20,126 bases of DNA, from positions 1 to 20,126 of IMG/VR virus record IMGVR_UViG_3300042691_007261. One strand, 5' to 3'. The translations under genes were made by a program, and so were the position numbers. Origin of the DNA: a virus. How positions within the stretch are numbered: position 1 is the first letter of the stretch; the number at the start of each line of letters is the position of its first letter. Positions 1,302 through 18,349 of the stretch are shown here, in pieces. The notes below the pieces were generated by a model. The model did no database searches. It was not told the origin of the DNA and worked only from the letters and a program-made list of their open reading frames with translations.

Positions 1302-1865
1302 ATGCCTAGGGGGTTTCCAGACAGTTGGGGCACCTACGCCGCTGGTAAAATTTGGAGAAATGTTAGGGGTTCGGCTAGCCGTGCCTATCGAGCAGGGGCT
1401 AGGGCTACTGGCGGTTCCAATCATTATTCATACAAATTTAGCCGTCTAAATCTATACAGACCTATTTTAAATGCTTATCTAAAAACCCCTGCTGGACCAC
1501 TTTGGCGTACCTTACAAGTTAGGGGCAGAATTACTTTAGTTTTAGCAAGAAGACAAGTAGGCGTAGACACTGGTGCACTAAAAAGGTCTATAACTATGTC
1601 TCATAAAACTACCTCTTACGGTCAAGAATTGAAAATAGGCTCTGAAAATAAAATTGCCTATCTACATCACGAAGGAACTAGGCCACACCTAATTACTCCT
1701 AAAAATGCCCCTCAACTTGTATTTATGAGTAAGGGCAGAATTATTAGGACTCAGTTAGTTAGACACCCAGGAACTAAGCCAAACAGGTACCTATCTGACC
1801 AACTTTTTGTTTTTCAGGATTTAGGTGCTGTTTACAGAGGCAAGTCTTTCCCTAAAGTGAAATAG
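1302..1865 (+). CDS. HK97 gp10-like tail completion / neck protein
   Basis: This 187-residue protein has the hallmark order of HK97 gp10-like proteins. A basic N-terminus precedes an Arg-rich helix leading into VGVDTGALKRSI (residues about 87-98). Then come IGSENKIAYLHHEGTRPH, LITPKNAPQLVF, an HPGTKPNRYL motif and a C-terminal helix. Family members act at the head-tail interface as completion or neck proteins. The first 60 residues (Gly, Ser, Tyr and Arg-rich) are longer than in compact members and look like a lineage-specific extension. The start is ATG 1302, one base after the terminator stop, without a clear Shine-Dalgarno site, consistent with translational coupling. By my count 16 of its 20 Arg codons are AGA/AGG, unlike the preceding gene, where CGN dominates. 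Confidence 0.72.
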   Translation: MPRGFPDSWGTYAAGKIWRNVRGSASRAYRAGARATGGSNHYSYKFSRLNLYRPILNAYLKTPAGPLWRTLQVRGRITLVLARRQVGVDTGALKRSITMSHKTTSYGQELKIGSENKIAYLHHEGTRPHLITPKNAPQLVFMSKGRIIRTQLVRHPGTKPNRYLSDQLFVFQDLGAVYRGKSFPKVK

Positions 1866-1953
1866 TAAAAATCAATAGTTTTTTTATAAAGTAAAATAGT
1901 CATAGGTTGAAACGCAACCAAATTACACATTCACAAGAAAGACTATACAGAAT
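1866..1953 (+). promoter_or_regulatory. Non-coding gap with small hairpin and possible -10 boxes upstream of tail chaperone genes
   Basis: This 88-base AT-rich gap is the longest non-coding stretch in the window. It contains a perfect 5-bp stem, GGTTG (1905-1909) and CAACC (1915-1919), with a 5-base loop; no T-run follows, so it is not a standard terminator. Upstream lie TATAAA (1885-1890) and TAAAAT (1892-1897), either of which could be a -10 box, but I see no convincing -35. Purine-rich AAGAAAG at about 1935 may help ribosome binding for ATG 1954. It may hold a promoter for the tail assembly genes; this is a weak inference. Confidence 0.3.
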
Positions 1954-2280
1954 ATGGCCAGATTTAAAGACTTCGGTAGCGGCGGAGATGCTTCTGAAAA
2001 AGAACCAATTTCATTCAAACTGTGGGGCGAAGAGTTCCACTGCGTTCCAGTAATTCAAGGAAAACTTTTACTTGAAATCGTTTCTGACTCTACTTCAGAG
2101 GACACATCTAAGTCCGCTCAGGTTATGGAAAAATTCTTTTCTGCTGTACTAAAGCCTGAGAGTAAGAAGGCGTTTGACATTATTCTTTCAGACCAAGAAA
2201 AAATTACAAGTCTAGAGACGCTAAGCGAAATTGTTGCTTGGCTAATGGAAGAGTACTCAAACCGCCCAAAAGAGCAGTAG
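1954..2280 (+). CDS. Tail assembly chaperone, short form (gpG-like)
   Basis: This 108-residue protein sits directly upstream of the overlapping frame and the tape measure gene, the classic position of the gpG/gpGT chaperones that load the tape measure protein for tail tube assembly. It has an N-terminal beta segment (PISFKLWGEEFHCVPV, residues about 18-33), then KLLLEIV and amphipathic helices to the end. This is typical of short tail assembly chaperones of actinophages. The start is ATG 1954 after an 88-base gap. The stop is TAG 2278-2280, ten bases after the end of heptamer 2265-2271, where ribosomes can shift to frame -1 and make the longer form. The role is assigned from position, overlap and layout; the sequence family itself is weakly conserved. 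Confidence 0.8.
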   Translation: MARFKDFGSGGDASEKEPISFKLWGEEFHCVPVIQGKLLLEIVSDSTSEDTSKSAQVMEKFFSAVLKPESKKAFDIILSDQEKITSLETLSEIVAWLMEEYSNRPKEQ

Positions 2281-2687
2281 ACGGTCTTTTAGAGTGGGCG
2301 GTCAATCTATGGCCGTATGTAAACGGGAAAGCAGTGATGAATGGCTTACAACTTTCAAGCATGGAAGCAAGCGATATGTTAGATGTCATTCACTATCTTT
2401 TTGAAGAAGATATGCGTTACTCTTCGGGAGAACAGGCAGAAGCGGTAGAAAAGTCTAGAGAAATAATTTACAAACAACTTTACGATGTTGATTACTTATT
2501 TTCTGGCAATTCTTCTAGGTCGTCAAGAAACGCCAATAACGGTGGGTCATTCAATGACTTTGACGATATTCAACCTTTTGACCCAAAGAAAAAGGTAACG
2601 AAGCCTTACATCCCTCCTACTCAATTTGACCCAGATACCGGGCTACCAATGAGTGGCAATGGATTACTAGAAGCACCGCTCAACTAA
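2238..2687 (+). CDS. Tail assembly chaperone, frameshift extension (gpT part of gpGT-like fusion)
   Basis: This frame lies in -1 relative to the short chaperone and is open from about 2178. It has no convincing own start: the TTG at 2238 lacks a Shine-Dalgarno site. It is therefore best read as the downstream half of a fusion made by -1 frameshifting. After slippage at 2265-2271 the product would read ...NRPK then RAVDGLLEW, joining 106 residues of the short form to 138 residues here (about 244 in total). The extension begins with a Trp-containing segment (EWAVNLWPYVNG), has helices with LFEEDMRY and a KQLYDVDY segment, and ends in a Pro-rich tail (PYIPPTQFDPDTGLP). That fits long-form chaperones. 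Its stop codon overlaps the Shine-Dalgarno sequence of the tape measure gene. Confidence 0.75.
   Translation: MANGRVLKPPKRAVDGLLEWAVNLWPYVNGKAVMNGLQLSSMEASDMLDVIHYLFEEDMRYSSGEQAEAVEKSREIIYKQLYDVDYLFSGNSSRSSRNANNGGSFNDFDDIQPFDPKKKVTKPYIPPTQFDPDTGLPMSGNGLLEAPLN
2265..2271 (+). promoter_or_regulatory. Programmed -1 ribosomal frameshift site, CCCAAAA
   Basis: In the frame of the short chaperone this reads C CCA AAA, an exact X XXY YYZ heptamer at codons 105-106, ten bases before the stop codon begins to matter. Slipping back one base enters the open downstream frame. A weaker alternative in the same phase is A GAA AAA at 2196-2202. No strong downstream hairpin is obvious by eye. A -1 shift at this position between tail genes is a conserved feature of siphoviruses. 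Confidence 0.75.
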
Positions 2688-2695
2688 GGAGGTGA
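2685..2695 (+). promoter_or_regulatory. Full-length Shine-Dalgarno site of the tape measure gene
   Basis: TAAGGAGGTGA is complementary over all 11 bases to the 3' end of bacterial 16S rRNA (TCACCTCCTTA). Eight bases separate it from ATG 2704. It is by far the strongest ribosome binding site in the window; its first three bases are the stop codon of the chaperone extension. It fixes the start of the tape measure gene. Confidence 0.85.
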
Positions 2696-2703
2696 GACAA
2701 TAA

Positions 2704-5700
2704 ATGCCAGTCGTAGGTGAAGCCCATATTATCGTTAGGGCCATCACTACCAATGTTGCCAAAGACATTAAAAATGGATTCAATGGCGTAAGTGGTAGTG
2801 GAGGAAAGAGCGCAGAAAAAGCAGGTGAAAATTTATCTGCAAAGTTTATGCGTGGCTTTAATAAGGGTTCTGAAATAAACTTTATGTCTGGAATCTCTAA
2901 AGGTTTACAAGAGATGACTCCCCAAGCGCAACAAGGTTACGATGCAATCAATCAATTAATTGTTACGGGCTACAAGGGTTCAGTAATGGGTAGCGCACTT
3001 GCTGGCTCCATCGGTGTGATTATTGGTGCTCTTGTCTCCTTAGTTGCTGCCGCTGCTGGTGCTGCCACATCTATAACAGCGGTAATCGGGCTATTTATAG
3101 CAATGAAGGCTGCCACTGCCGTAGCAAAAATGGCATTTAATGGAGTTGGAGAAGCAGTACAACAAGCAACTCAGCAACAAAAGGCACAAGTAGAGACGCT
3201 AAAAAATCTGCGTGAAGAACTTCAGCAACTAAAGTTCGATGCTGAAGATGCTGCTTTAGCCGAAGAACAGGCTGCCATATCTCTAGAAAAAGCCCGTGAA
3301 GGATTAGCAAGAACTGCCGATTTACCAGCAGATAGTCGTGCTCGTCGAGAATCAGAACTTCAATACAAGCAAGCGGAACTAAACTACCGTAGGGCTAAAG
3401 ACAGAAGTGCTGACCTAAATGAAGAATTAAGAACAGGAGCAAAGGCTAGAGCAAAGGCCGCTGCTCAAGACCCTTATGCGAACCTAACAGCAACTCAAAA
3501 AGGATTTGCTAAATTTCTTGTAAAACTACAGCCTATTTTTAAAATTCTAAGAGAGGCTGTGGCTAAAGGTTTCTTACCTCTACTACAAGAGGGCTTAAGC
3601 AAACTTATGACTTCTGGTACTTTTGACGCTATTTTTAACGGTATTAAAAATATTGGAAGTGCTTTAGGGCAAGCATCTAAAGTTTTATTTGAATTTTTCT
3701 CTTCCGCTGATACCGCTAGATATCTAAGAGAAATATTTGAACAAATTTCTTATGTCATAAAAGAGTTCGGTCCTCTCTTATCTAAATTCTTTGAAGCATT
3801 CTTTAGAATTATGGCTGCTTCTACGCCTATTACAAAAAAACTTGTAGATTTTATCTCTAAACTTTTAGACGATTTTATTGCTCTGTTAGACAGAACTGGC
3901 GACACAGGGCTAATGAAATTTTTCATTACTGCTGGAGATATGGCTGCCAAATTTGGAAAAATATTTGGCAACATTTTTGGTGGGTTTGTCAAAATTGTTG
4001 AAGCAAACTTTGGGCCCGGTACTGGTGGAGATTATTTACTAAACTGGCTAATAGAAGCCACTGAAGGATTCGGCACTTTAGGGAAAAGTGGCAGTGGACT
4101 AAAAACTTTCTTTAACGATATAGCAATCAACGCTAAAAAAATGTTTAGCGGTATTGGCTCAATTGTCAAACAAATTGTACAATTTGGTGCCGACCCCAAC
4201 ATCGGTGTGTTTTTTGAAGAAATAAAAAAGGCTGCTCCTTTCTTCAGTAGTATTCTGAAAAAGGCTGGACAAGCATTACCTACTGTTGGCAAATTAATTA
4301 CAAAAATTGTTGAAATCTTAGACAAACTTACAGACGACGCTGCTATAGATAATTTCTTTAAGACCTTGCTTACTGGTGCCGATATATTTAGCAAAATGCT
4401 GGGAAATCCAGTCGTCAAAAGCGTTATGGCATTTACTGGCCAAATTAAGGCTGTAACGCTCGGTATTGGTGAAATTGGTAAAAAGGCTAAACCAGTATTT
4501 GATTTCCTAACTCAAACAGTTACCAATGTAACTGGATTCTTTGGTAAAGCCCAAGAAGTCGCTACTGGAGTAAAAGAAGCGTTTGGTACCGTTGTAACGG
4601 TAAACGCTGGTATGAGAAGTGCCATTAAGAAGACCACGGATAGTTTTAAAAAAGCAGCAGAAGTATGGCCTAAGTTTTCAAATGGAATTAACCAAGCCAG
4701 AGACTACACTGGACTTCTATCTAAGAAAAGTGGAGCGTTTCTAAAAAACGCCACAGATGGCACTCGTAAATATCTAGCCAGCAACAACTTGCTAGTTGCT
4801 TCATATGGTCGCCTAAGACTAGCCATTGAAACTACTGCCCTAAGATTTAACTTATTCAAGACTGGTGCTCTAAAAGGTTTTACTCAGATGGCTGCTAGCC
4901 AAAATAAATCCATTGCTTTATTTGGAAGAATGGGTAAATTTATGGTTGGACATCCAATTTTGATTCTTATCGGTCTTATTGTTGGTGCCTTTATAACTCT
5001 TTACACAACTAATGAAAAATTCCGTAATCAGATAAACGACACATTTAAACCAGCCTTAGATGCAATTGGCGAAGCATTAAGAGTAATTATGGTTGCTCTA
5101 CAACCAGTAATTTTGCAGTTCCAAAGACTTATGGACACTCTTTTTGGCGGAGAGGCTGGAGGCGGTGGAGGTCCATTAACTAAATTCTTTGTAATGCTTG
5201 CTGAGTATATTTCTAAAGTTGTACAAGTTATGGCCCCATTGATTGCTGAACTAATAACTAAACTTATGCCAATAGTAGAAATGTTATTGAACCTACTAAT
5301 TCCAATAGTCAAGGTAGTTATGACACTTTGGATGGCAATTCAAGGTGCTCTTATGACAGTCATACTTAAGTTGGCAGAAGCCTTTATGAAGATAGTAAGC
5401 GTAATTGTTAAACTACTTATGCCTGTACTTGATGGCATAATGGCATATTTAGTCCCACTTATGAATGTTTGGGTTCAAATCATAGAACTTATTGCTGCCT
5501 TTTTTGAGGCTCTATTTAGTGGCGACTGGGAAAAATTTGGCACAATATTCAAACAAATTGGTCAAAATATTATTCAATCTTTGGCTGATATGTTTACTGG
5601 ATTTGTGAACTTAATTATTTCTTTATTGAATTTATTGTTCAAATTGGCGATGGCTCATCCGCTTATTGGGTTCCTAGCAGATAGCGTAAAGGCTCTTTCT

Positions 5701-6039
5701 GGTGGGACAATAGATATTAAAGCATCGGTAGATAAAGGTCTAATTCCTAATGTTCCTCGTATGATTGTTCCTCAAATGTTTGCTGAAGGTGGAGTTGTAT
5801 CACCGTCTGCTGGCGGAACTTTGGGTATTATTGCTGAGGCTGGTAGACCAGAGCGCGTTGAGCCACTTGACCCAGACGGTCTATCTAAGAGAGATAAGGC
5901 AATGATTGCTTTGATGGGCGGGGGTAGCGGTGGAATGAACATCACTGTAAACGGCACCCCAGATATGGATATCAACGCTCTTGCCGCCGAAGTAAGTAGA
6001 AGACTTGCTTTCCAAATGCGTAAAGGTGCTGCTTACTAA
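2704..6039 (+). CDS. Tail tape measure protein
   Basis: This 1111-residue protein follows the chaperones, as tape measure genes do. It sets tail length and is released on DNA ejection. Domains visible: residues 97-135 strongly hydrophobic and Ala/Gly-rich; about 150-255 an Ala/Glu/Lys/Arg-rich predicted coiled coil; about 260-300 the segment with QPIFKILREAVAKGFLPLL typical of actinophage tape measures; a long helical middle; and hydrophobic stretches at about 747-770, 844-939 and 965-995. The C-terminus has FAEGGVVSP and AEAGRPERVEPL (about 1026-1050), the usual tape measure tail motif, then a Gly-rich linker and an amphipathic end. There is no peptidase or lysozyme motif that I can see. At roughly 1.5 angstrom per residue the length predicts a tail of about 165 nm. 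Its stop codon overlaps the next ATG by one base. Confidence 0.93.
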   Translation: MPVVGEAHIIVRAITTNVAKDIKNGFNGVSGSGGKSAEKAGENLSAKFMRGFNKGSEINFMSGISKGLQEMTPQAQQGYDAINQLIVTGYKGSVMGSALAGSIGVIIGALVSLVAAAAGAATSITAVIGLFIAMKAATAVAKMAFNGVGEAVQQATQQQKAQVETLKNLREELQQLKFDAEDAALAEEQAAISLEKAREGLARTADLPADSRARRESELQYKQAELNYRRAKDRSADLNEELRTGAKARAKAAAQDPYANLTATQKGFAKFLVKLQPIFKILREAVAKGFLPLLQEGLSKLMTSGTFDAIFNGIKNIGSALGQASKVLFEFFSSADTARYLREIFEQISYVIKEFGPLLSKFFEAFFRIMAASTPITKKLVDFISKLLDDFIALLDRTGDTGLMKFFITAGDMAAKFGKIFGNIFGGFVKIVEANFGPGTGGDYLLNWLIEATEGFGTLGKSGSGLKTFFNDIAINAKKMFSGIGSIVKQIVQFGADPNIGVFFEEIKKAAPFFSSILKKAGQALPTVGKLITKIVEILDKLTDDAAIDNFFKTLLTGADIFSKMLGNPVVKSVMAFTGQIKAVTLGIGEIGKKAKPVFDFLTQTVTNVTGFFGKAQEVATGVKEAFGTVVTVNAGMRSAIKKTTDSFKKAAEVWPKFSNGINQARDYTGLLSKKSGAFLKNATDGTRKYLASNNLLVASYGRLRLAIETTALRFNLFKTGALKGFTQMAASQNKSIALFGRMGKFMVGHPILILIGLIVGAFITLYTTNEKFRNQINDTFKPALDAIGEALRVIMVALQPVILQFQRLMDTLFGGEAGGGGGPLTKFFVMLAEYISKVVQVMAPLIAELITKLMPIVEMLLNLLIPIVKVVMTLWMAIQGALMTVILKLAEAFMKIVSVIVKLLMPVLDGIMAYLVPLMNVWVQIIELIAAFFEALFSGDWEKFGTIFKQIGQNIIQSLADMFTGFVNLIISLLNLLFKLAMAHPLIGFLADSVKALSGGTIDIKASVDKGLIPNVPRMIVPQMFAEGGVVSPSAGGTLGIIAEAGRPERVEPLDPDGLSKRDKAMIALMGGGSGGMNITVNGTPDMDINALAAEVSRRLAFQMRKGAAY

Positions 6040-8744
6040 TGGCTACTGTCTATAACCTATTTACTAACCCGTCTTTTATTTCTAATACGACAGGCTGGGT
6101 TGGTCTAGCCCTATCTGGAACTACTCCTACTATTTCAACTGACAACAGTTCTCCTCTTTTTGGTACAGGTTATTCTGCAAAAATTACTTTCGCATCTAGT
6201 AGTCCGCAGAGCGGTCTGATAAGTGACGACAACTACAGAATTCCTGTAATTGCTGGTCAAAACTATACTTTCTCGGCTTATGTAAAAGTTCCAGCAGGGC
6301 AAGCAACATCAGACTTCTCACTTAGAGCATACTTTTATACATCTGGTACAGCAGGGGCTGGTGACCTAAGTTCAAGCGATTCTGCACCTACAACCATCAG
6401 TTCTTATGACGGCTGGGTAAGACTGACTTTTACTTTTACAGTCCCAGCAACCGCTACTCACTTTAGAGGATTTGTTTACAGAAGCCTGACCGCTACTATC
6501 GGTTCTGGTTATAACTTCCTAGTAGACGCTCTACAATTTCAAACTGGTTCTGAAGCGACCTCTCTTATTTATGACCAAGGTCAGAAGAACAAACTTGTAG
6601 ACAAGGCTCTTACCAATGTCTACATTGACCACCTAACTGGTATGAAACTCAAGGCGGATATCCGTCTTGGCGATTTTGTATTCAACCGTATCGATGAATA
6701 TGGCGTTATTTGGGTAGTCAACGATGTCGAGGGCTGGTGGAACTTGCCTCAAGTAGATATGCAAGATTTGCCTCGTGGATGGGGAGATGGCTCTTACACT
6801 ACATACGGTAGATACGGCTCTAGACAACTAACCATTACTGGAAGTTTTATTCTTCAAGACTCTGATACTCAGTTGGAAGCGGCTAGAGAAAGACTCATTA
6901 AAGCCATAAATCTAGTAAAAAAAGACAGTTGGTTAGTACTAGATGAAGACACTCCTAAGGCTCTAAAAGTTAGACTTAGTGGTACCCCTAGCATTGCTAC
7001 AGTAAATCCTAGAGGTAAGACAGATTTTTCTATCGGTTTAGTGTCTGCTGACCCAATCAAGTACAAGTGGGCAGATGCTAGAGATGATGGCTACGCTTTA
7101 ACGACAGCCAACTCTAACGCCGAGGTAGTAACTATTAGGAACGATGGAAACACTCCAGTAGGAGTTGTTTTTGACATCATTGGCCCAACCACTGGGCCAG
7201 TATCGATATTCAACAAAACATCGGAACAACTTATTGATGTTATTTACAGACTTAATAATTACAGAAGTTATACTGTTGAAAAAGCAGAAGTAGAAAACGG
7301 TAATTTAGTTTTTACTACCAGCAGTCCTCACGGGTTTAGTGTCGGTGAAGCAGTCGACATACTAAATGTGCCAGACATTTTTAAGGTTAGTTCTGTAATT
7401 TGTTCAACAACTGATTACCTAGACATTACTACTGAAGTAAAACATAATTTTTCCGCTGGGCAAAAGATTTATTTGACTGGTATCAGCGGTCTTACTAACT
7501 ACGGAAATGTTGCCAATGGCACTTACACCATTACTAATGTTTATGGTGGAACAGATGACTATAAATTTAGAGTCAATAATGCGTCTCTAGCCCTATCCAC
7601 CGCCGTATCTAGAACCGCGGTTGCATCATCTAAGTTCAGTAACTGGACTGAATTGTCAGCAATTACATACGACAGTGCTAATAATTTGGCTACCGTAAAT
7701 ACTGCAACTACTCACGGTTTTTCAGTAACCGACCAAATTGTCATAAGCAACACTGATGCAATATATAACGGCACTTGGGTTGTAACTGGTGTGCCATCTT
7801 CAAGTTCATTTGAATTATCTATTTACGAGTCTCAGACTAGAAGAAAAATAAGTACTTACGCTTGTACGCTGTCTCTAGGTACTATTGTCACCTCTGGTAA
7901 TACCGATGCTCAAATTGGGGATTTTATTACCATTGAGGGTGTAAATGAAGATTTCAATGGGACTCACGAAGTAGCAAGCGTCTCTGGTGCCACGATTACT
8001 TTCTATAAATCTTTTCCTTCTGAAATATCTACCCCTGCGTCATCGACTTACGGGTATGTCTATGTCTCTAAACTATCTACCAGAGCGTCTGCACCGTTTG
8101 CTAGCGGTAAAGCGTATTATGGAAATATTTATAATGGTTATTATAATGTTGACTATGTTTCTACTGCCGATGCATCCAAGTTTAAAGTAGTTAGACCAAT
8201 ATATTACTCCAATGTTGTTGAAACTACGCTTTCTGATTTTGGTGGAGACAGTACAAGTCCAAAGTCTAGAATTTATGCTGAAGCACTAAGTATTGACACA
8301 TACACTAGGGATGTTGCTCTAAATGGGGAACTGGGCGGTTATCGCTCAAAACTTGACACCATTGTTGATTGGATTGAATTACAGCCTGGCGACAATGAAA
8401 TAGTGTTTGAAGATTTTAATAAAATTTATGTATCTCAAGTTACATATGCGTACACTAATGTTCCTAATACAACAGCAACAATAACTACAGAAACAGACCA
8501 CAATTTAGTTGTCGGTTCTCAGGTAAAAGTAGTGAGCCTAAACACGGTTGCTGGGGGTTCGGCAGTTTTTGCTAACAATTCAACGGCAACTATATTGACG
8601 GTTCCAGACACAAAAACATTTACATTCACTCCAACAAGTTTAGGTAGTGGTTCTATTAACACCACAAGCGTTTCTACTGGTTATGTTTATGAGGTTAGCC
8701 CAGCAGCCTTGAACATCTACTACAGGTCAGGCTGGATTGGGTAG
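6039..8744 (+). CDS. Distal tail (Dit) protein with N-terminal carbohydrate-binding-like domain and inserted beta repeats
   Basis: The 901-residue protein directly after the tape measure should be the distal tail ring protein. Residues 1-178 resemble a jelly-roll carbohydrate-binding module: NLFTNPSF at the start, GQNYTFSAYVKVPAG in the middle, and a final LVDALQFQTGS strand. Residues about 195-400 carry Dit features: PRGWGDG, a GRYGSRQLTITGSF strand, a following AARERLIKAI helix, and a SADPIKYKWA strand. The C-terminal lobe is recognisable at 748-792 (ALSIDTYTRDVALNGE, W-x-ELQPGDNEIVFED) and 887-901 (PAALNIYYRSGWIG). Between these blocks are inserted HG-[FY]-type repeats, with core residues at about 431, 469, 559, 625 and 821. 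Typical Dit proteins are much shorter (roughly 250-350 residues), so this is an enlarged Dit, probably an adhesion protein as well as a structural one. ATG 6039 overlaps the previous stop. Confidence 0.75.
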   Translation: MATVYNLFTNPSFISNTTGWVGLALSGTTPTISTDNSSPLFGTGYSAKITFASSSPQSGLISDDNYRIPVIAGQNYTFSAYVKVPAGQATSDFSLRAYFYTSGTAGAGDLSSSDSAPTTISSYDGWVRLTFTFTVPATATHFRGFVYRSLTATIGSGYNFLVDALQFQTGSEATSLIYDQGQKNKLVDKALTNVYIDHLTGMKLKADIRLGDFVFNRIDEYGVIWVVNDVEGWWNLPQVDMQDLPRGWGDGSYTTYGRYGSRQLTITGSFILQDSDTQLEAARERLIKAINLVKKDSWLVLDEDTPKALKVRLSGTPSIATVNPRGKTDFSIGLVSADPIKYKWADARDDGYALTTANSNAEVVTIRNDGNTPVGVVFDIIGPTTGPVSIFNKTSEQLIDVIYRLNNYRSYTVEKAEVENGNLVFTTSSPHGFSVGEAVDILNVPDIFKVSSVICSTTDYLDITTEVKHNFSAGQKIYLTGISGLTNYGNVANGTYTITNVYGGTDDYKFRVNNASLALSTAVSRTAVASSKFSNWTELSAITYDSANNLATVNTATTHGFSVTDQIVISNTDAIYNGTWVVTGVPSSSSFELSIYESQTRRKISTYACTLSLGTIVTSGNTDAQIGDFITIEGVNEDFNGTHEVASVSGATITFYKSFPSEISTPASSTYGYVYVSKLSTRASAPFASGKAYYGNIYNGYYNVDYVSTADASKFKVVRPIYYSNVVETTLSDFGGDSTSPKSRIYAEALSIDTYTRDVALNGELGGYRSKLDTIVDWIELQPGDNEIVFEDFNKIYVSQVTYAYTNVPNTTATITTETDHNLVVGSQVKVVSLNTVAGGSAVFANNSTATILTVPDTKTFTFTPTSLGSGSINTTSVSTGYVYEVSPAALNIYYRSGWIG

Positions 8745-8784
8745 TGTATAATTACTATAAAGACAAATACAGAGTTAGGCAATT
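8745..8784 (+). promoter_or_regulatory. Possible internal promoter and start context of the hub gene
   Basis: The 40-base gap and its left edge carry a consensus -10 hexamer TATAAT (8747-8752) and a second, TATAAA (8756-8761). No good -35 is seen at 16-18 bases; TTGAAC at 8709 is too far away. The start context TAGGCAATTATGTCA nearly repeats that of the terminator gene (TAGGCAACTTATGTCA), giving AGG as a short Shine-Dalgarno site. This might allow separate transcription of the hub and fibre genes. Confidence 0.35.
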
Positions 8785-11700
8785 ATGTCAGACAACGAAA
8801 TAACTTATAGATATTTCATCACCAACCTAATAACTAATCAAGTTATTGGTGAAGTCCCCCTAACGGGGGTGTCTTATGAAAGAGCACTTAAAGACGCTGG
8901 TTCATTTTCTGGAACTTTATCTCTTGCCGAAGAAATAGTTGGCATAGATGTATACAACGCCACAATGCCAGGCAAAAACGCAATTTATGTTTTGCGTAAT
9001 GGGGTATGTGTTTGGGGTGGAGTTATTTGGTCTCGTAGTTATGATGTTGTAGGGAAAACGGTCAGCATTAATGCTAACGAATTTACAAGTTATTTTCAGC
9101 ACAGAAAAATTTGGAAAAGTTGGAACTTAACTTATAGCGACACCCTAGTTTATGTCGACCCAAAAAATGAATCTCAGTTGATAATAGAACTGAGTACGGA
9201 AACTGATAGAAGAATAACAATTGAAGAAGGGGTAGCAGTTGAGTTATCTTTCTTAGACAAGAGAGGTTACAACCTAAACGGGCATTTTAGAGTTAATAAA
9301 GATTTCTTTAATGCTAAAAGAATTACTGTTGATAAAGACGCTCTTCAATGGAATGTCCCTAATGTTAGCCATGTATTTCAAACTAAAAAAGATGGATTAT
9401 TTGATGTAGCCAGCAGACAAGTAACTGCTGGAAGTAAACAAGTTAAAATTACCACCGACACCCCTCATATGCTTTCAGTTGGTAGCGAAGTAACTATTGA
9501 AAATCTTGAAAAAGAAGTTGCTGTTGCCACATACAAAACTTATAAAACTCTTAGCACCGAATACCCAATAGCGGCCATATCATCTACTTCAACTATTTAT
9601 GGTTATGGGCTTAAAGTTACAAAAGATAGTTTTGTCATAACTGGATTCACTGCTTCGACTATAGAGGGGATTTCAGTTGGAGCCAAAATAACCCAGTTGT
9701 CTGACCCCAATAATAAACACAATAACGGAACTCTTTTTGTTGCTGGATTTGATTGCAGAGTTACAAAAGTAGATAAAGGTGCAAATACCGTCACATTTTC
9801 TTCCTATTTAGGGGCAAACATAAGCCCAACAAACACACCTGCGTCTAGAACTGGCACTGTTTATTTAAAATTTGAAAATCAAAAAAGCGGTTATATTGCC
9901 ACCGCTGATAAAAATCGCGGAGAACTTTTATACTCCATCCAACCTAAAAACTACAGTTGGGCTGGAAAATTGGGTAAGGGCTCATTAGTAAAACTAAATG
10001 GAATTAAAAAATTCCAAGCAAGTGGTACAGAAACCGTTCAAGATGATAAAGTTTTTGGTTTTTTAAGCGGAGACAAAACTAGGTACCCATACAATGGCGG
10101 GGATGCTACTGCTCTTACCGTAAGCGGTGAAAAGGTAATAAGTCTCTCTAACACAAGTCCAAACAATCAAAGCACAAACGCTATTAAACCTGGAATGAAA
10201 TTTACTAGAGTTTCTGGAGTAGTAAATAGTGACACATTTGTAAAAAATGTTATAAATGCTACCGCTTTTACTCTTGAAGTTTCTGATTGGACAACTGGGG
10301 GTGGGATAACTTTTGACATAGCAGAAGAGGAATTCCACACTGTAAACGGTTTTTCTGATTCAAATGTAATTAAAACTATGCAGGACTACCACTACCAAAG
10401 CAAGATAAGCGATTTTGCTGGTGTCCCTTCAATTATATTTAAAAGAAAAATTGGTCCACCTAAGGGGACTCTTATAAACAACTACCTTAGTGGTTGGGTA
10501 GCACCAACCGCCGATGCAAGTTTTAATATTGTTCAGGTAGATGTACATGACTACCCTTACACCAAAAGCGACGCAGCCGAATGTGTAAATACAGAAGATG
10601 GTGAAACTACACCAGTTATCAAAGTGATTGACAGTAAGACATTTATTGTCAACTCTTCTTGTGAAGCAAAATATGATAACACCAGCACTAATCAGGGGAC
10701 AGCAAAAATTGCTTGGGATGGTAAATACCAAGCGACCATGTACACTCACACAGACACTTACGAGCAAGTTAGGTATTTCTTAGGTAAAGTCTACGAAGAT
10801 TTTGTTTCCATTGAAAATAGAAACCCATTCCTAAACAATTTAGATAAAACTTTTATTAGAACTGCCAAGTATGACACTGCTACTGATTTAGCAACAATTA
10901 CTACAGGTTTTAGAAAACCCGTGTACAGCAAAACTATTTACTTTGACTACACCTCTTTAAAAATGATTGCCAGAATAGGATTATACGAGCCGTACTCTCA
11001 GTTCAACACCACTGAAGATGTAAACAGAGTAGTAACAATCACAGGGTCTGATACTTCAATAAATGGAACTTTCTTTATAAAACAAATAGACGGCACAAAA
11101 AGTTATGTCGATTATGAACTTAATGAAAAAGAGCAAAGGGACATAAATAAATATTCACTTGCTAGTGTCAGTAGAAGCGGTGGTTTTGTCACATACACCA
11201 CCAATCAACCTCATAATATGAGGGTTGGTCAAATAGTGACTGTCGGTGGCCTTGCAACTAATATGAATGTATATAATACGGCAGTATTGGAAATAACAGA
11301 CACCACTATTAAAGTTTTCACTACATATGCTGGCACGGCAACCGACTCTTCGCCTAACGCAAGTATTTTTACATCAGACAGATTAATTTACGAAACTAGA
11401 CTGCCAGTGGGGTCTTCTGTAATTACTTTTGGTAAGCACAATCTGAGTGCTGGAAATAACATTGAAATTAGAGGTCTTACTAGGCAGAATTACGATGGAG
11501 TATTCAAGGTTTCTTCTGTTCCAGATGAAGTTACTTTTACTTATAAGCCTCAGTTTGAGTCCTTAGAAGTTATTGGCGTAGAACTAAGTTACTTAGTCAA
11601 TTCATATGTAGTCACTTTAAAACTAAATAAGGAACCTAATTTTACTAAATATGACTACATCAATGGTTATACCGACATCACAATTAGTGGTCTAGGAGCA

Positions 11701-13482
11701 CCTTACGATGGCACGCAGACAATAGATTCTTACAAAGAAGTTAAAACAAATTCTGGCACAGAATATTATTTGTCTTATAAAATTTCTGGTGCTGCTGAAA
11801 GCCGCCCTATACACCCTATGCGTTTGGCTTCTTACTCTCAAAGAAAGTACGGAACTTCTAGTTCTATTACCGCTGCCAGTTATGTGGCAGAAATTGGTGG
11901 CACAAAAACTAAGACTACTGCTACTGGTAGAGGTGTCTCTACATTTACAACTGGCTCCGTTCATTCGTTTACAGTCGGTGAAAAAGTAGTTATTTCTAAT
12001 GTTGGTGGAGAATTTACTCAATTAATTGGAAACACTAATGCGTACTCGGAGTATATAGTTACGGTTTCTTCGGTACCTAGCAATACCACATTTACTGTAA
12101 GTAGCGTGGCCACTGCTTCAAATGAAAGTCTTTGGAAACTTAAAAACAATTCTAATATTGAAATAGCAAAGAAAAATACAAGTACCTCACCGTCTAATGC
12201 TACCGCGGTGGCGTTTGACAATTCTGACAACAGACCGACTGATATTTATCCAAAAATAAAAATTGACAATCTGCCTACTGTCAATGACCTTACATCTTTA
12301 ACTACGCAAATAACTGGTAAAGCATTTAATGCTAAAACTAAGGCTGTTTATTTACAACTAAATTCTGACCCAGGTTTTGCAGTTGGTCAAACTGTGTTTA
12401 TTCAAAATGCAGATGACACTAAAGAGAATATTTTTGATGGCTACTACACCATCAGTAGTTTTAGTAAGTGGACTGACAATAAATACCAAATTGTATATGT
12501 TTCCTCGAATCAAAAAGAAAAAGCAAGCATAGGCACATTTGATAAAAAGCAAGTTTTGACTGGGTACAAAAAAGAATCCGCTAATACAGATGCCTCTGCC
12601 ACTGTCTATTCTCAGGTAATTTCTGGAAGTTACGGCTCGTTTACTGAAAATTCTGACCCTATTATTGAATTCTCTACATACGAAGATTCTGGCAACTACC
12701 AAAGAGTGCCAACTTATACTGGAGACAAACTAAAAAATGTTGGAGATTACTTATCCGAATATTCTGATAAATATATAGTAAAACCAAATAGCACAAAAAT
12801 AATTAGGAATGTCTACGGATTTGAATATCGAATTGATTGCGTCTATGACAACATAAATTCAACTTTTAGAAGAGTATTTACTTTCTTGCCAATTTCTTAC
12901 CCTAATCCGCCTATACACGGTGAAGTGTCCCCGCCTAGTAGGTTTGGAGCAGACAAAATTGTATTTGAATATCCCGGCAATATCAGTAGCGTAACCCTAG
13001 AAGAGTCTGCTGAAGAGGCTTCTACTAGATTCTTTATGGTAGGTAGCGATGGAGGCACTGGAACTCCAGACGCTTCAAAGACTTATGTCGGTGTCGCTCA
13101 TAAAGATTTGTTAGCAGACAACTGGCCTTTATTAGATTCAGATGAAAGTAATGACAAATTAGATTTTATTGATGACATTTCAGAAAATGCTTATAGATAT
13201 CTGAATGAAACTAAACCACCATCTGGTGTTTTTCAAATTGCTGTAGTAGGCAATCTTGACCCTGTGGTAAATACTTACAAACCTGGCGACTGGTGTAGCA
13301 TTATAGTAAACGATAAATTTGTAAAAGACCGTTTGGCTAGTGATTTAGAACCTAGAAACGATGTAATAGTGCGAAAAATACTTTCTTATACCGTAGAAGT
13401 TCCAGATGCTCCTTCTGTTCCAGAAAGCGTTAACTTAAATCTAATAACTGAGTGGGATGTAGATAACCGTGGCCAGCAATAG
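8785..13482 (+). CDS. Baseplate hub (minor tail) protein with very large beta-repeat insertions
   Basis: This 1565-residue protein falls into three blocks that resemble actinophage hub or minor tail proteins of about 350-450 residues. Block 1 is residues 1-115: VPLTGVSYERAL, then TMPGKNAIYVLRNGVCVWGG and SYFQHRKIW. Block 2 is residues about 645-685 (TYEQVRYFLGKVYEDF). Block 3 is residues about 1277-1565: SYGSF, YTGDKLKNVGDYLSEYSDKY, FEYRIDC at 1346, FRRVFTFLPI, YEYPGN-like FEYPGN, and KPGDWCSIIV. Between them lie about 530 and 590 residues of beta-rich sequence with repeat cores at about 228, 810, 885, 1060 and 1196. The hub plugs the tail tip beneath the Dit ring and usually contacts the cell first. 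No peptidase or lysozyme motif was recognised. Its end overlaps the fibre gene by 14 bases. The hub call rests on remembered motifs and position. Confidence 0.72.
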   Translation: MSDNEITYRYFITNLITNQVIGEVPLTGVSYERALKDAGSFSGTLSLAEEIVGIDVYNATMPGKNAIYVLRNGVCVWGGVIWSRSYDVVGKTVSINANEFTSYFQHRKIWKSWNLTYSDTLVYVDPKNESQLIIELSTETDRRITIEEGVAVELSFLDKRGYNLNGHFRVNKDFFNAKRITVDKDALQWNVPNVSHVFQTKKDGLFDVASRQVTAGSKQVKITTDTPHMLSVGSEVTIENLEKEVAVATYKTYKTLSTEYPIAAISSTSTIYGYGLKVTKDSFVITGFTASTIEGISVGAKITQLSDPNNKHNNGTLFVAGFDCRVTKVDKGANTVTFSSYLGANISPTNTPASRTGTVYLKFENQKSGYIATADKNRGELLYSIQPKNYSWAGKLGKGSLVKLNGIKKFQASGTETVQDDKVFGFLSGDKTRYPYNGGDATALTVSGEKVISLSNTSPNNQSTNAIKPGMKFTRVSGVVNSDTFVKNVINATAFTLEVSDWTTGGGITFDIAEEEFHTVNGFSDSNVIKTMQDYHYQSKISDFAGVPSIIFKRKIGPPKGTLINNYLSGWVAPTADASFNIVQVDVHDYPYTKSDAAECVNTEDGETTPVIKVIDSKTFIVNSSCEAKYDNTSTNQGTAKIAWDGKYQATMYTHTDTYEQVRYFLGKVYEDFVSIENRNPFLNNLDKTFIRTAKYDTATDLATITTGFRKPVYSKTIYFDYTSLKMIARIGLYEPYSQFNTTEDVNRVVTITGSDTSINGTFFIKQIDGTKSYVDYELNEKEQRDINKYSLASVSRSGGFVTYTTNQPHNMRVGQIVTVGGLATNMNVYNTAVLEITDTTIKVFTTYAGTATDSSPNASIFTSDRLIYETRLPVGSSVITFGKHNLSAGNNIEIRGLTRQNYDGVFKVSSVPDEVTFTYKPQFESLEVIGVELSYLVNSYVVTLKLNKEPNFTKYDYINGYTDITISGLGAPYDGTQTIDSYKEVKTNSGTEYYLSYKISGAAESRPIHPMRLASYSQRKYGTSSSITAASYVAEIGGTKTKTTATGRGVSTFTTGSVHSFTVGEKVVISNVGGEFTQLIGNTNAYSEYIVTVSSVPSNTTFTVSSVATASNESLWKLKNNSNIEIAKKNTSTSPSNATAVAFDNSDNRPTDIYPKIKIDNLPTVNDLTSLTTQITGKAFNAKTKAVYLQLNSDPGFAVGQTVFIQNADDTKENIFDGYYTISSFSKWTDNKYQIVYVSSNQKEKASIGTFDKKQVLTGYKKESANTDASATVYSQVISGSYGSFTENSDPIIEFSTYEDSGNYQRVPTYTGDKLKNVGDYLSEYSDKYIVKPNSTKIIRNVYGFEYRIDCVYDNINSTFRRVFTFLPISYPNPPIHGEVSPPSRFGADKIVFEYPGNISSVTLEESAEEASTRFFMVGSDGGTGTPDASKTYVGVAHKDLLADNWPLLDSDESNDKLDFIDDISENAYRYLNETKPPSGVFQIAVVGNLDPVVNTYKPGDWCSIIVNDKFVKDRLASDLEPRNDVIVRKILSYTVEVPDAPSVPESVNLNLITEWDVDNRGQQ

Positions 13483-16400
13483 AAGTAGAAAATTTAGGTC
13501 AATCACTGGTCGTATTAGTGAAATTGATAAAAAATTAGGCTCTGTAGATAAAAACCTGCAAGCAACGGTAAATGGACTTGGCGTAGATTCCGTGTCTTCA
13601 GATTCTATATCGAGTGAATCGGTCGGTTCTGACGCAATACAAATCGAGTCCATTACAGCCGACAAAATAGCACCTAGCGTTTTTGAAAGTGCCTCTTCTG
13701 GAATACAAAGAGTGCCTACCCCGCTGACCTCGGTAGATTATTGGAACTCTGCTATATATGGAAACATAACTGCTTTTTCTAATGCCTATTTTGGAAACAA
13801 AGAAAATAAAAATGTTGAAGCAACTGAGCAGGGGGTGTTGTTCAGTCCTGAAGCCAACAGTTCAGTGTCTATTAGTAAGGCTCAGTTGTTGAGTGATGGA
13901 GTGGTTCTTATTACTACTGACTCCGCTCATGGTTATGAAGTAGGCGACTACATAACAATAACAAACTTAGATTCTCCATTTGACGGGGAGTGGGTAATAA
14001 CAAGTACTCCATCTGTAAGCACTATGTGCTACTCAATAAACCAGTATGAAGAAAGTTCTACAAATGTAGATACTGGTGCGTACATAGTAATAGGTGAAGA
14101 AGATACCGTCGGGTACAAGCACAGTATTGTTAGGAAATCTTTTGTAGATGGAGTAGTTACTCTAAGTTTAGTTGACGAAACTGACACTACAGCCACATCT
14201 AGTACGCACGGCTATGAGGTTGGCTATGTAGTGACTATTTCTGGTCTAGGTTCCCCGTACGATGGCACTCATAAAATAACTTATGTTGCTGCCGATAAAT
14301 CTGCAATTATTCAATATAGACCAGACAACCTAACCATAGATGAATTTGAACCTAAAATTTCCTTGACTTCTGCTTGGGGCAACGGGACCAACATTACTTA
14401 TGACTCTGACGACATTCACGGCATATCACTAAATCAGATTGTAAAGATTACTGGATTTAGTACAGGTGGATATAACCTTACTGGAAGAGTAAACGGAGTT
14501 TATGGTGGCGGTAGCACATTCACTATTCCATCAACTACCACTACTACATCTCCAGATACTGGTGGCACATATAGTTGTCTAAACGCTAGCGTCTCGGTAG
14601 AAGCAGATGCCGTGCTATTCCTAACTGGTAAGAATCCAGTGCCGTCTAGTAGAAGCGTAGTTATTAGTTGGGTATCAAACAATCCAATAAAATTTTATGC
14701 TGTAGTTTGGCAATCATCTACTCCAGATTCTCCATTGTTTACTGAAATTGATGCTGAAATCAACGGAGATGTTTCTTATTTGCCTGGGCTAAATAACTAT
14801 GCTTGGGAAATCCCTGAAGGCATAGATTATTACGCTATTTATGCTGAGGTACTGCCCGGTAGCCCAGAAGCACTACTAAAAGAATGTTATGTATTTGAAT
14901 CAGTTGGCGATTCTAATAAAAAAGTAGAAAAAATTGTAAATGCTTCTATTGAAGCGGTAGCCAATAACGCCAATAAAGTCACCTTATACACATCTAGTAC
15001 CCACCCCTACAATGTCGATGACACCGTTTTGCTTAGCGGTATGGAGACCGTATCAGACACGCTAAATAAAAAATTTACAGTTTCAGCGGTTTCTGACGAC
15101 AAAAAAAGTTTTTCAGTAAGTGTCCCTGTTGTAAATATATTGGTTGCCACCACGAGTGCTAGTTTCACAGTAAATACTAATCCTGTATATAACGATATTA
15201 CTGGTGCTACATCTAACTTAGATGTTTCTGGAAAAATCTATGTAGGTCAGCCTTTTACTTCTAGCAATGTTACTGCTCTACCTAACAGCACTGTAACTGC
15301 AATTGAATCTGTAACTAATGATGTTGTAGTAAAAACTGGTCTTGTTGCTACCTTGGTTAGTGGTAGTAATACCGTAACCCTAACTACTGGAAATACAGAA
15401 GGAATTTATTCTGGTCAAATCCTATTGAAGACATCTGGTACTGGTGCTTTTGTCACTAATGGTGGTTCCTATGTAGACACTGTTACTGGAAGTACGACAT
15501 TTACTACTACTGCCACTCACGCAACTAGCGGTTCTACTACTTTCAATACGGCCGTAAGAACAATAACTCAGTCTTCTTTTAGAGTAAATAATGTCAGTGC
15601 TGGCACAAACTCTAGTGTAAATCTTTCTTTCTATTTACCTAATACAGAAAGCACCTCCAGTATTGCTCTATCAGCAACTGCTATCGGTGGGTTTGCCAAA
15701 ACACAGACAAGTACCATAAGTCCTGTAGGTATAAATCAAGTTGGAGCAGACGGCTCTCAGGGATTGAATTTAACTGATGACAGCAAAACAGACAATTACT
15801 TAAGCATTAAAACTTCTATCGGAGAATCGGTAGCGTCTGTTTCTAACACTGGTGCTGGGACTTTCAAAACTCTAGACGCTGACTCGCTATCTGTTGATGG
15901 CGACATCACTATTGGAAATGAAAATACCGCTTTAGTTGGAACTTTTATTGACGAAAAGTTTAATGGAAAATCTTATAGCGGTGCCCTACTAGATAGACTG
16001 GCTCGCGGGACTATTTATCAGGCTTACTGGCTAACTCCATCGACTAATGTAGAAACTAAGTATCACGGCTTTGCTGCTGGAACTTTTAAACTTGACACAA
16101 ATAGGCTTTACCAAGTTTATGCCAGTTCTTCTGGTATGAGGGCAAGCGTAAATACAAATGTTGCTCTTGAGTTTTTGATAAGCACAACTCCTATGAGAGT
16201 TGATGATGATACTGACCTATCACACCTTTCATACACTCACCCATCTCAGACTTACACTACATCTACACCAAATGACTCTACATATACAACTGCTATTGGA
16301 AATGACTCTGTATTCACCACTACTTCAAACTCTGGCCACACCCACGCTGTAAATGTCACTCACACTCACAATGTGAACATTTCACACACACACACCGTAA

Positions 16401-18349
16401 GTGTATTTACTAGCAGTTTTTGGAGAGATTTAGCGGGGCATTTTTACTCAACAAGTCCAACTCCAGTTGCTAATAACACCACTAAATACGCAATTACCAG
16501 TTTTAGTCGTACAAGTCCAAATGCAAATATAACAATTACATTGCCAAATGTGGCTGCCAAATACATGCAATCAACCGATGACATAACAAAAATGTTTGTT
16601 GGCGTGAATATAAATAACAGACTTTATGAAAACAATGTAGATAATAGTCAAAATATAAATGGCACATATAGATTGACAAAAAACAACAGAACTCAATTTA
16701 TATTTCAGTCTTACGGGACATCAACTATATCCACAGTCCAAAGAGTTGAAAATTTACAAGCAACGCTATCTACTGGAACTAGCACCATTACTCTGACTTC
16801 AGGAGTTACTACCAATATTTCTAATGGGCAAATGCTAATAAAAACTTCTGGTACTGGAGAGTTTGGAAATAATGAAATAGTTTATGTAATATCAAAAACC
16901 AATCCAAGTACTTTGGTAGTTGGATATGCTAACGGTGACGCTGTAACTCACTCGGTTGCTGGCGCAATTACATTTGAAGCCAGTGCTGGGGAAATAACTC
17001 TTGTGGACCCAATTATGACAAATACAAGAGCAACCTTTACTAATGCTAATCAAACTTTGATAACTGGGACAATGGTGTCTGGTAGCAACACTATAACTGG
17101 TATGGCTAATATGGCTAATGAATTGGCTGTAGGAGACACTATCTACGAAGTAGGTAGTGGACCGATGCCTTCTACTGCTACCGTAGTCAGCATTGTCAAT
17201 GCTAATGCTATAACTATTAGTGGCACCGCTAGCAGTACGGGTGGAGTCACATTTGACACTAATAGAGTGCTTGCCACAAGCGATGGCGTAAATCACACAT
17301 ATGTGATACCAAACCTATTCCAGTCAGGTCAATTAGTTGATGTAACTTCTGAAAATAGTGCTTGGGACATAACTGCTGGAACTGTAGTCTCTGCTAACTC
17401 TACTCAATTTATAATTACACCACCTTTAGGTGCCATTACTCCAGCGGGCAGCAATACGACTGGCTATGTTGAGGCAAGTTGGTCAGATAGACAAGTTCAG
17501 TTGCATAGGAACTATTTGCCTTCCGAGACAGACTTGTATTATGTTCTTCGCTTAAGACATCAGGTGACTCCAAGTTCTTACGCAATAACTCTTGCTGAAA
17601 ACCCAAACAGTATGCTTGCCATCACTGACTTAGGACAAGCAAAAGACATGAGTTTTGTTGCTCAAGAAAATGCTGGGGCAACTTGGACATCTGGATTACC
17701 AATTGGGTACAACGATGTTTCTTCAACTGACACTACAATAATTGCCGAAACTCAAATTTTATCCGCAAGCGATTCTGCTTATTATGATAATTACGGTAAA
17801 GGCACTGAAAGTAATATTCCTTATTCCTATTTGTACTACTTGTATCAAGGTAATCGTGGAGATGCTTCTGGAGTGAAAAAATCTGCTGTTTTGTTCCCAG
17901 CGTTTGACTTTACTGGGAAAACAAACGGTCTTACAATTACAAAACTTGAAGTTTATTTGAGAAATAGAAATTCTTATAATTCAGACGGGCTTACTGCGTA
18001 TTTAGCAGTCCATGACAGTGCTTCGCTTGGCTCGTCTGTACCACTGGCAAATGATTTATGTCCAGCAATTACGACAACATTTACTAAAGGTCAAGGAAAG
18101 TGGATAACACTGCCTACAAGTTGGCACGATGCGTTTGATGCCAATGGCACTGGTAGAGGGATTTTGCTTGGAATTGTTGATGAAAATCCAGACACTTACT
18201 ACGATGCCAACACTAATTATGGTTATTTTGATGGTGTCACGCTAGATGATGCCCCACGAATAAGAGTTACTTACAGATACAATTCAAGTGTTGGCTCTCA
18301 GAACAGTGGGGGTGGAGATGGTAGCGGTGGAGACTACATTGCAATATAG
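13469..18349 (+). CDS. Large tail fibre / receptor-binding protein with beta repeats and HxH motifs
   Basis: The start is GTG 13469 inside the end of the hub gene, a 14-base overlap. The 1626-residue product begins with a basic helical stretch and an IT-x-DKIA-type segment (residues 1-72) with Ser-rich 5-residue periodicity, as at the attachment end of many fibres. HG-[FY] repeats follow with cores at residues about 154, 247, 317 and 512. A second repeat family (SGSNT-[IV]-T and LLKTSGTG motifs) occurs at about 623-697, 1092-1172 and 1195-1266. Three His-Thr-His octapeptides lie at 957-975. The C-terminal domain (about 1470-1612) is beta-rich, with AYLAVHDS, KGQGKWITLP and PRIRVTYRY, followed by a Gly-rich tail. 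Position and composition point to a trimeric adhesin that recognises the host surface. No enzymatic or intramolecular chaperone motif was seen. By my count about 29 of 35 Arg codons are AGA/AGG. Confidence 0.75.
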   Translation: MASNRSRKFRSITGRISEIDKKLGSVDKNLQATVNGLGVDSVSSDSISSESVGSDAIQIESITADKIAPSVFESASSGIQRVPTPLTSVDYWNSAIYGNITAFSNAYFGNKENKNVEATEQGVLFSPEANSSVSISKAQLLSDGVVLITTDSAHGYEVGDYITITNLDSPFDGEWVITSTPSVSTMCYSINQYEESSTNVDTGAYIVIGEEDTVGYKHSIVRKSFVDGVVTLSLVDETDTTATSSTHGYEVGYVVTISGLGSPYDGTHKITYVAADKSAIIQYRPDNLTIDEFEPKISLTSAWGNGTNITYDSDDIHGISLNQIVKITGFSTGGYNLTGRVNGVYGGGSTFTIPSTTTTTSPDTGGTYSCLNASVSVEADAVLFLTGKNPVPSSRSVVISWVSNNPIKFYAVVWQSSTPDSPLFTEIDAEINGDVSYLPGLNNYAWEIPEGIDYYAIYAEVLPGSPEALLKECYVFESVGDSNKKVEKIVNASIEAVANNANKVTLYTSSTHPYNVDDTVLLSGMETVSDTLNKKFTVSAVSDDKKSFSVSVPVVNILVATTSASFTVNTNPVYNDITGATSNLDVSGKIYVGQPFTSSNVTALPNSTVTAIESVTNDVVVKTGLVATLVSGSNTVTLTTGNTEGIYSGQILLKTSGTGAFVTNGGSYVDTVTGSTTFTTTATHATSGSTTFNTAVRTITQSSFRVNNVSAGTNSSVNLSFYLPNTESTSSIALSATAIGGFAKTQTSTISPVGINQVGADGSQGLNLTDDSKTDNYLSIKTSIGESVASVSNTGAGTFKTLDADSLSVDGDITIGNENTALVGTFIDEKFNGKSYSGALLDRLARGTIYQAYWLTPSTNVETKYHGFAAGTFKLDTNRLYQVYASSSGMRASVNTNVALEFLISTTPMRVDDDTDLSHLSYTHPSQTYTTSTPNDSTYTTAIGNDSVFTTTSNSGHTHAVNVTHTHNVNISHTHTVSVFTSSFWRDLAGHFYSTSPTPVANNTTKYAITSFSRTSPNANITITLPNVAAKYMQSTDDITKMFVGVNINNRLYENNVDNSQNINGTYRLTKNNRTQFIFQSYGTSTISTVQRVENLQATLSTGTSTITLTSGVTTNISNGQMLIKTSGTGEFGNNEIVYVISKTNPSTLVVGYANGDAVTHSVAGAITFEASAGEITLVDPIMTNTRATFTNANQTLITGTMVSGSNTITGMANMANELAVGDTIYEVGSGPMPSTATVVSIVNANAITISGTASSTGGVTFDTNRVLATSDGVNHTYVIPNLFQSGQLVDVTSENSAWDITAGTVVSANSTQFIITPPLGAITPAGSNTTGYVEASWSDRQVQLHRNYLPSETDLYYVLRLRHQVTPSSYAITLAENPNSMLAITDLGQAKDMSFVAQENAGATWTSGLPIGYNDVSSTDTTIIAETQILSASDSAYYDNYGKGTESNIPYSYLYYLYQGNRGDASGVKKSAVLFPAFDFTGKTNGLTITKLEVYLRNRNSYNSDGLTAYLAVHDSASLGSSVPLANDLCPAITTTFTKGQGKWITLPTSWHDAFDANGTGRGILLGIVDENPDTYYDANTNYGYFDGVTLDDAPRIRVTYRYNSSVGSQNSGGGDGSGGDYIAI
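15335..17265 (+). repeat. Three dispersed copies of a second beta repeat in the fibre
   Basis: Copies lie at about 15335-15557, 16742-16982 and 17051-17265. Each starts with a short strand, then SG(S/T)NT-[VI]-T or STGTSTIT. Copies 1 and 2 then share L-[LI]-KTSGTG-[AE]-F, while copy 3 has VGDTIYEVGSG in the same place. All end in a strand close to GS-x-TF or GGVTF. The DNA is also similar, for example TCTGGTACTGG in copies 1 and 2. Boundaries are approximate. Confidence 0.6.
16337..16402 (+). repeat. Triple His-Thr-His octapeptide repeat within the fibre gene
   Basis: The translated segment reads HTHAVNVT, HTHNVNIS, HTHTVSV, an 8-residue period with the HTH in the same place each time (residues 957 to about 978). 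At DNA level CACAC-rich units recur. HxH motifs in trimeric fibres such as phage T4 gp37 line up along the axis and coordinate metal ions, and the same arrangement is plausible here. Confidence 0.75.

Follow-up and report, generated by a model that had tools for sequence, protein, structure and literature searches.

The window, by which is meant the whole 20126-base stretch of DNA analysed, is an IMG/VR virus contig from a tailed freshwater phage and carries genes for the tape-measure protein, the distal tail protein (Dit), the hub and a fibre (Table 1). A second contig, L013, is 99.95% identical to it over 9141 bases and adds an upstream major tail protein gene, and among named phages it is closest to Actinomycetia phage DSL-LC01 and to large Microbacterium phages, e.g. 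A3Wally and Cece. The window Dit has two marks of an evolved Dit, namely a Dit core, recognised by PF22768, phrog_33 and phrog_202, and an extra carbohydrate-binding module (CBM_4_9, E 1.2e-10); its PF22768 score of 24.7 bits lies slightly below the cut-off of 25, which the Dits of DSL-LC01 and of a second clade of relatives (clade B) exceed. The first part of the Dit core is 74-91% identical in relatives. In the Microbacterium relatives Dit and hub are separated by an additional minor tail protein gene (L004:9686-11920; L005:9600-11945) with weak module matches. The C-terminal part of the fibre (window 17714-18346) resembles a tail protein of the Streptomyces phages RickRoss, WheeHeim and Forthebois (31-33%, E 3e-9 to 7e-9), of which WheeHeim is a tectivirus, belonging to another realm and having an actinobacterial host. 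A search for related loci with the window fibre as query gave no match, perhaps because some of its parts vary more than anything in Dit or the hub.

Module copies in Dit, hub and fibre

A module profile built from eight seed copies and then extended over relatives detected 14 copies of a module (type 1) of some 50-80 aa between positions 7257 and 15160, with five in Dit, five in the hub and four in the fibre and domain scores of 23-68 bits. The preliminary description of this DNA had counted about 14 copies, distributed in just this way (about five of them in the hub), and the count stands, except that a hub copy placed near 11690 proved to be a degenerate piece of 10 bits falling outside the 14. 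Its proposal that a single repeat family runs through three neighbouring proteins is upheld by a matching predicted fold in hub and Dit and by profiles from which one protein at a time was left out: the copies in the omitted protein were regained, down to E 3e-12 for the fibre, 6e-10 for Dit and 3e-8 for the hub, with two weaker fibre copies at E ~0.006. Ser/Thr-rich beta proteins could resemble one another through composition, with no homology, and the low-complexity character of the segments would fit such an artefact, as would a tblastn search in which an 83-aa consensus found no match in phages, low-complexity filtering being a possible reason. That explanation is extremely improbable and is refuted by the shuffled-protein null, in which none of 900 shuffled proteins, nor the reversed proteins, gave a match at E<0.01 (top shuffled score 8.4 bits); the cross-protein recovery and the agreement of predicted folds also stand against it.

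Table 1. Genes, domains and module copies in the window, with residue positions (aa) in the encoded protein.
Feature	Window position	Strand	aa	Remarks
Tape-measure gene	2704-6039
Dit gene	6039-8744
Dit N-terminal carbohydrate-binding domain CBM_4_9	6054..6461	+		PF02018, E 1.2e-10, 42.4 bits (cut-off 25.9)
Dit core, first part	6573..7256	+		phrog_33 and phrog_202 'distal tail protein Dit'; phrog_5577
Dit module 1	7257..7415	+	407-459	40 bits; short, end overlaps module 2
Dit module 2	7404..7610	+	456-524	42 bits
Dit module 3	7641..7826	+	535-596	59 bits
Dit module 4	7830..8060	+	598-674	47 bits; model resembles E1 FCCH, Z 9.2
Dit C-terminal domain, last part, after array	8277..8438	+	748-806	PF22768 SPP1_Dit, profile 42-94 of 97
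Dit module 5	8442..8687	+	802-883	42 bits; model resembles E1 FCCH, Z 8.5
Hub gene	8785-13482
Hub N-terminal core	8806..9285	+		phrog_1885 positions 15-131; 43% identity to DSL-LC01 hub
Hub module 1	9418..9654	+	212-290	40 bits
Hub type-2 module	10147..10320	+		22 bits, E 7e-6
Hub module 2	11143..11355	+	787-857	36 bits; model resembles E1 FCCH, Z 9.9
Hub module 3	11413..11568	+	877-928	45 bits
Degenerate hub copy	11677..11751	+	965-989	10 bits, E 0.037; bears the GGTCTAGG DNA match
Hub module 4	11905..12135	+	1041-1117	34 bits
Hub module 5	12301..12540	+	1173-1252	33 bits; same position as last DSL-LC01 hub module
Hub C-terminal core	12619..13476	+		84-88% identical in close relatives; 41-43% in DSL-LC01 and Microbacterium phages
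Fibre gene	13469-18349
Fibre module 1	13856..14074	+	130-202	68 bits
Fibre module 2	14111..14350	+	215-294	49 bits
Fibre module 3	14351..14569	+	295-367	24 bits
Fibre module 4	14933..15160	+	489-564	39 bits
Fibre type-2 module a	15347..15547	+		19 bits, E 8e-5
Fibre type-2 module b	16760..16903	+		16 bits, E 5e-4
Fibre type-2 module c	17063..17257	+		13 bits, E 5e-3

A profile seeded on copies from major tail proteins revealed four copies of a distantly related subtype (type 2), three of them in the fibre and the fourth in the hub; profile against profile, the two subtypes match at E 1e-5 (probability 81%). Relatives bear module copies in their major tail proteins as well. One relative (L017) has two neighbouring, closely similar major tail protein genes (589-1743 and 1762-3318), one product having a single type-1 module and the longer one a tandem pair of type-2 modules. 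The Microbacterium phages Cece and A3Wally have regular arrays of half-length modules (~36 aa) in the C-terminal part of Dit (L005 aa 526-800; L004 aa 906-1180).

Fold of the module

The module is an E1-FCCH-like beta-barrel. The Pfam profile E1_FCCH (PF16190) gave 14.4 bits for the window Dit and 14.7 bits for the fibre, under the gathering cut-off of 29.5, and no match for the window hub; a clade B Dit reached 32.9 bits, above the cut-off. AlphaFold models were obtained for hub residues 780-1262 and Dit residues 340-890 with mean pLDDT of 59 and 56, some module segments being modelled better. In these low-confidence models hub residues 784-867 and Dit residues 596-681 and 791-889 form a barrel that matches the FCCH domain of UBA1/UBA6 (Z 8.3-9.9), and two of these, hub module 2 and Dit module 4, resemble in addition the K1F/phi92 endosialidase barrel (K1F residues 423-512; structures 4hiz, 3gvj, 3ju4, 1v0e and 3gvk) at Z 8.2-9.7. 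The tool itself gives 7-8 as the background for best matches; Z 8.2-9.9 thus represents a modest margin, and the fold match gains weight from its consistency with the sequence label and from its recurrence in two proteins. The FCCH-like label given earlier to these segments is supported as a description of fold. A sequence-profile search of solved structures produced weak matches (best E 0.03), and a literature search on FCCH domains in phage tails found nothing relevant in the collection of papers covered. Foldseek matches to viral proteins were plentiful in cyanophage fibres and baseplates, down to ~E 1e-10, and PHROG matches included fibre, baseplate, major tail and head proteins; it is from these two sources, and not from tblastn, that the breadth of the module type was judged, and they indicate that it is common in phages.

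Insertion sites and descent of the copies

In DSL-LC01 the module sites are empty or nearly so, the Dit of 385 aa having one module, the hub of 659 aa two and the major tail protein none; the A3Wally major tail protein has one module at the place where that of DSL-LC01 has none. Residues 1173-1564 of the window hub were aligned by BLAST with residues 305-668 of the DSL-LC01 hub. In three Dits the PF22768 match starts at profile position 40-42 directly after the modules, as if the Dit array interrupted the C-terminal domain, and the hub array falls between phrog_1885 positions ~131 and 146. The arrays lie within and after the Dit C-terminal domain, in the hub between its N- and C-terminal parts, and in the first third of the fibre. 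The clade B Dit has two modules inside its N-terminal CBM-like domain, directly after the first conserved segment, and the related Dits L023 and L024 have none at this site, a clean gain of two modules. An easily folded domain that loops tolerate might spread by recombination with no advantage to the phage from any one copy, and the insertions in apparent surface loops, including that CBM-like domain, are in keeping with such neutral accretion, as is the wide occurrence of the fold in all kinds of phage structural proteins. We regard it as unlikely, however, as every copy in the window's clade is kept at its position in those relatives whose sequence covers that position.

Copy number and position are constant within the window's clade. 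In a tree of 97 copies and 69 columns, whose deep forks are poorly supported, each window copy clusters with the same-position copy of relatives, so the array is old and stable in this lineage. Between relatives the module copies are mostly ~41-76% identical, compared with 74-91% for the cores, and modules diverge faster than the core proteins. Copies in different genes show the divergence to be expected of old paralogues. Once the overlapping pair d1/d2 is set aside, the window lineage has no excess of DNA identity between copies of one genome, and the apparent d1/d2 excess seen in clade A is produced by their overlapping coordinates. It had been noted that a hub copy and a fibre copy keep DNA similarity in GGTCTAGG and TACGATGGCAC. 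This identity is real, but the same codon is used in 6 of 10 shared residues against 3.5 expected (P ~0.09), and the DNA match is kept in no relative. It follows from a shared peptide, GLG-PYDG, often met with in the module family and encoded by other codons in relatives. A recent hub/fibre exchange was accordingly rejected as its origin.

The situation is different in clade B. Here the module of the major tail protein and the N-terminal pair in Dit are 69-79% identical in DNA over ~190-226 bases. In one phage (L025) both Dit copies lack the same 3 bases, in frame, and have in common an identical run of 20 bases, features absent from the orthologues in the other four phages; L033 is a weaker case of sharing between Dit and major tail protein. 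Over whole modules there is no within-genome excess in clade B, and short tracts alone show one. These short shared tracts, in few genomes, are suggestive of gene conversion. The earlier proposal of duplication and exchange among neighbours thus finds no support as recent exchange among the three genes in the window lineage, given its positional orthologues and the lack of DNA excess, and is supported for clade B, where duplication and module gain are accompanied by a probable and local exchange, mainly between major tail protein and Dit. It is conceivable, if improbable, that one barrel family constitutes a pool of adhesion parts shared by major tail protein, Dit, hub and fibre, in which gene conversion would carry short stretches between copies in different genes and so shift the surface specificities of several virion proteins at once. 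Also unlikely is a docking role, in which barrels of Dit, hub and fibre would pack together and hold the tip: adjacent proteins do have the same fold, and local sequence sharing of the clade B kind would keep interfaces alike, but copies in different genes have drifted as far apart as old paralogues would.

Possible roles in adhesion or spacing, and known systems

The reading that we prefer, to which we would give a probability of about 55%, is that the tail tip is an 'evolved' Dit/Tal-like adhesion device made up of surface-exposed adhesion and spacer beads. E1-FCCH-like barrels are inserted as arrays at fixed sites of tailed-phage structural proteins; they would lie on the outside of the tail tip and spread it, and would make many weak contacts with host surface glycans beside the CBM_4_9 of the same Dit, the FCCH-like barrel being the repeated brick of the device. 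The beads probably extend the tail tip and help to grip the host surface. The suggestion that the modules lengthen the tip fits the compact relatives with few modules.

It may be instead, and we consider this possible though the less likely, that the modules act as passive spacers, rigid beads that determine how far the tip reaches and how thick it is, whilst binding is left to CBM_4_9 and the C-terminal part of the fibre. This would explain why the copies keep their number and place throughout the window's clade, a constancy as compatible with a structural as with an adhesive role, why the arrays are flanked by conserved cores, and why cultured Microbacterium relatives have regular ~36-aa half-length arrays in Dit and hub. 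Spacers of the tip, however, need not occur in the major tail protein too, nor would they be expected to diverge faster than the cores, and a phage tailspike binds glycan with this fold. The K1F endosialidase has three polysialic-acid sites, of which its barrel, with the host-discrimination residues S460, S468 and G504, is one (PMC12632334); the match of the modules to it is a likeness of fold, not of binding site. It is from this glycan site, the CBM_4_9 in Dit and the faster divergence of the modules that we infer glycan binding and favour adhesion beads over pure spacers. With its filled and empty or near-empty sites the locus offers a clear case of tail tip growth by one small fold in several neighbouring proteins, and a tractable set in which to put the question of adhesive versus spacer beads in uncultured freshwater actinophages.

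Several known systems invite comparison. With E1_FCCH (PF16190) the modules share the fold, by structural match and by a relative's copy above the sequence cut-off, but the window proteins reach 14-15 bits, under 29.5, and show no sign of ubiquitin chemistry, so that the label is one of fold. The K1F/phi92 endosialidase has the same barrel (Z 8.2-9.7) in a phage tail domain, but there it is a single barrel in an enzyme, whereas the window phage has arrays without an enzyme. Foldseek matches, down to ~E 1e-10, lie in Synechococcus phage fibres, an endosialidase and a baseplate wedge initiator, but these phages have other hosts, and the alignments are long and loose with TM-scores under 0.2, so that they are resemblances and not orthologues. 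Evolved Dits are known from lactococcal and Oenococcus phages, and CBM-decorated Dit, Tal or major tail proteins from lactococcal 936 and other phages (PMC6669499, PMC8540738). Like the window Dit with its CBM_4_9, these have inserted extra domains, and their bricks are common to several virion proteins; the brick of the window phage differs in being an FCCH-like barrel, in arrays of 4-5 per protein that are homologous across proteins. The bead type itself is known and widespread.
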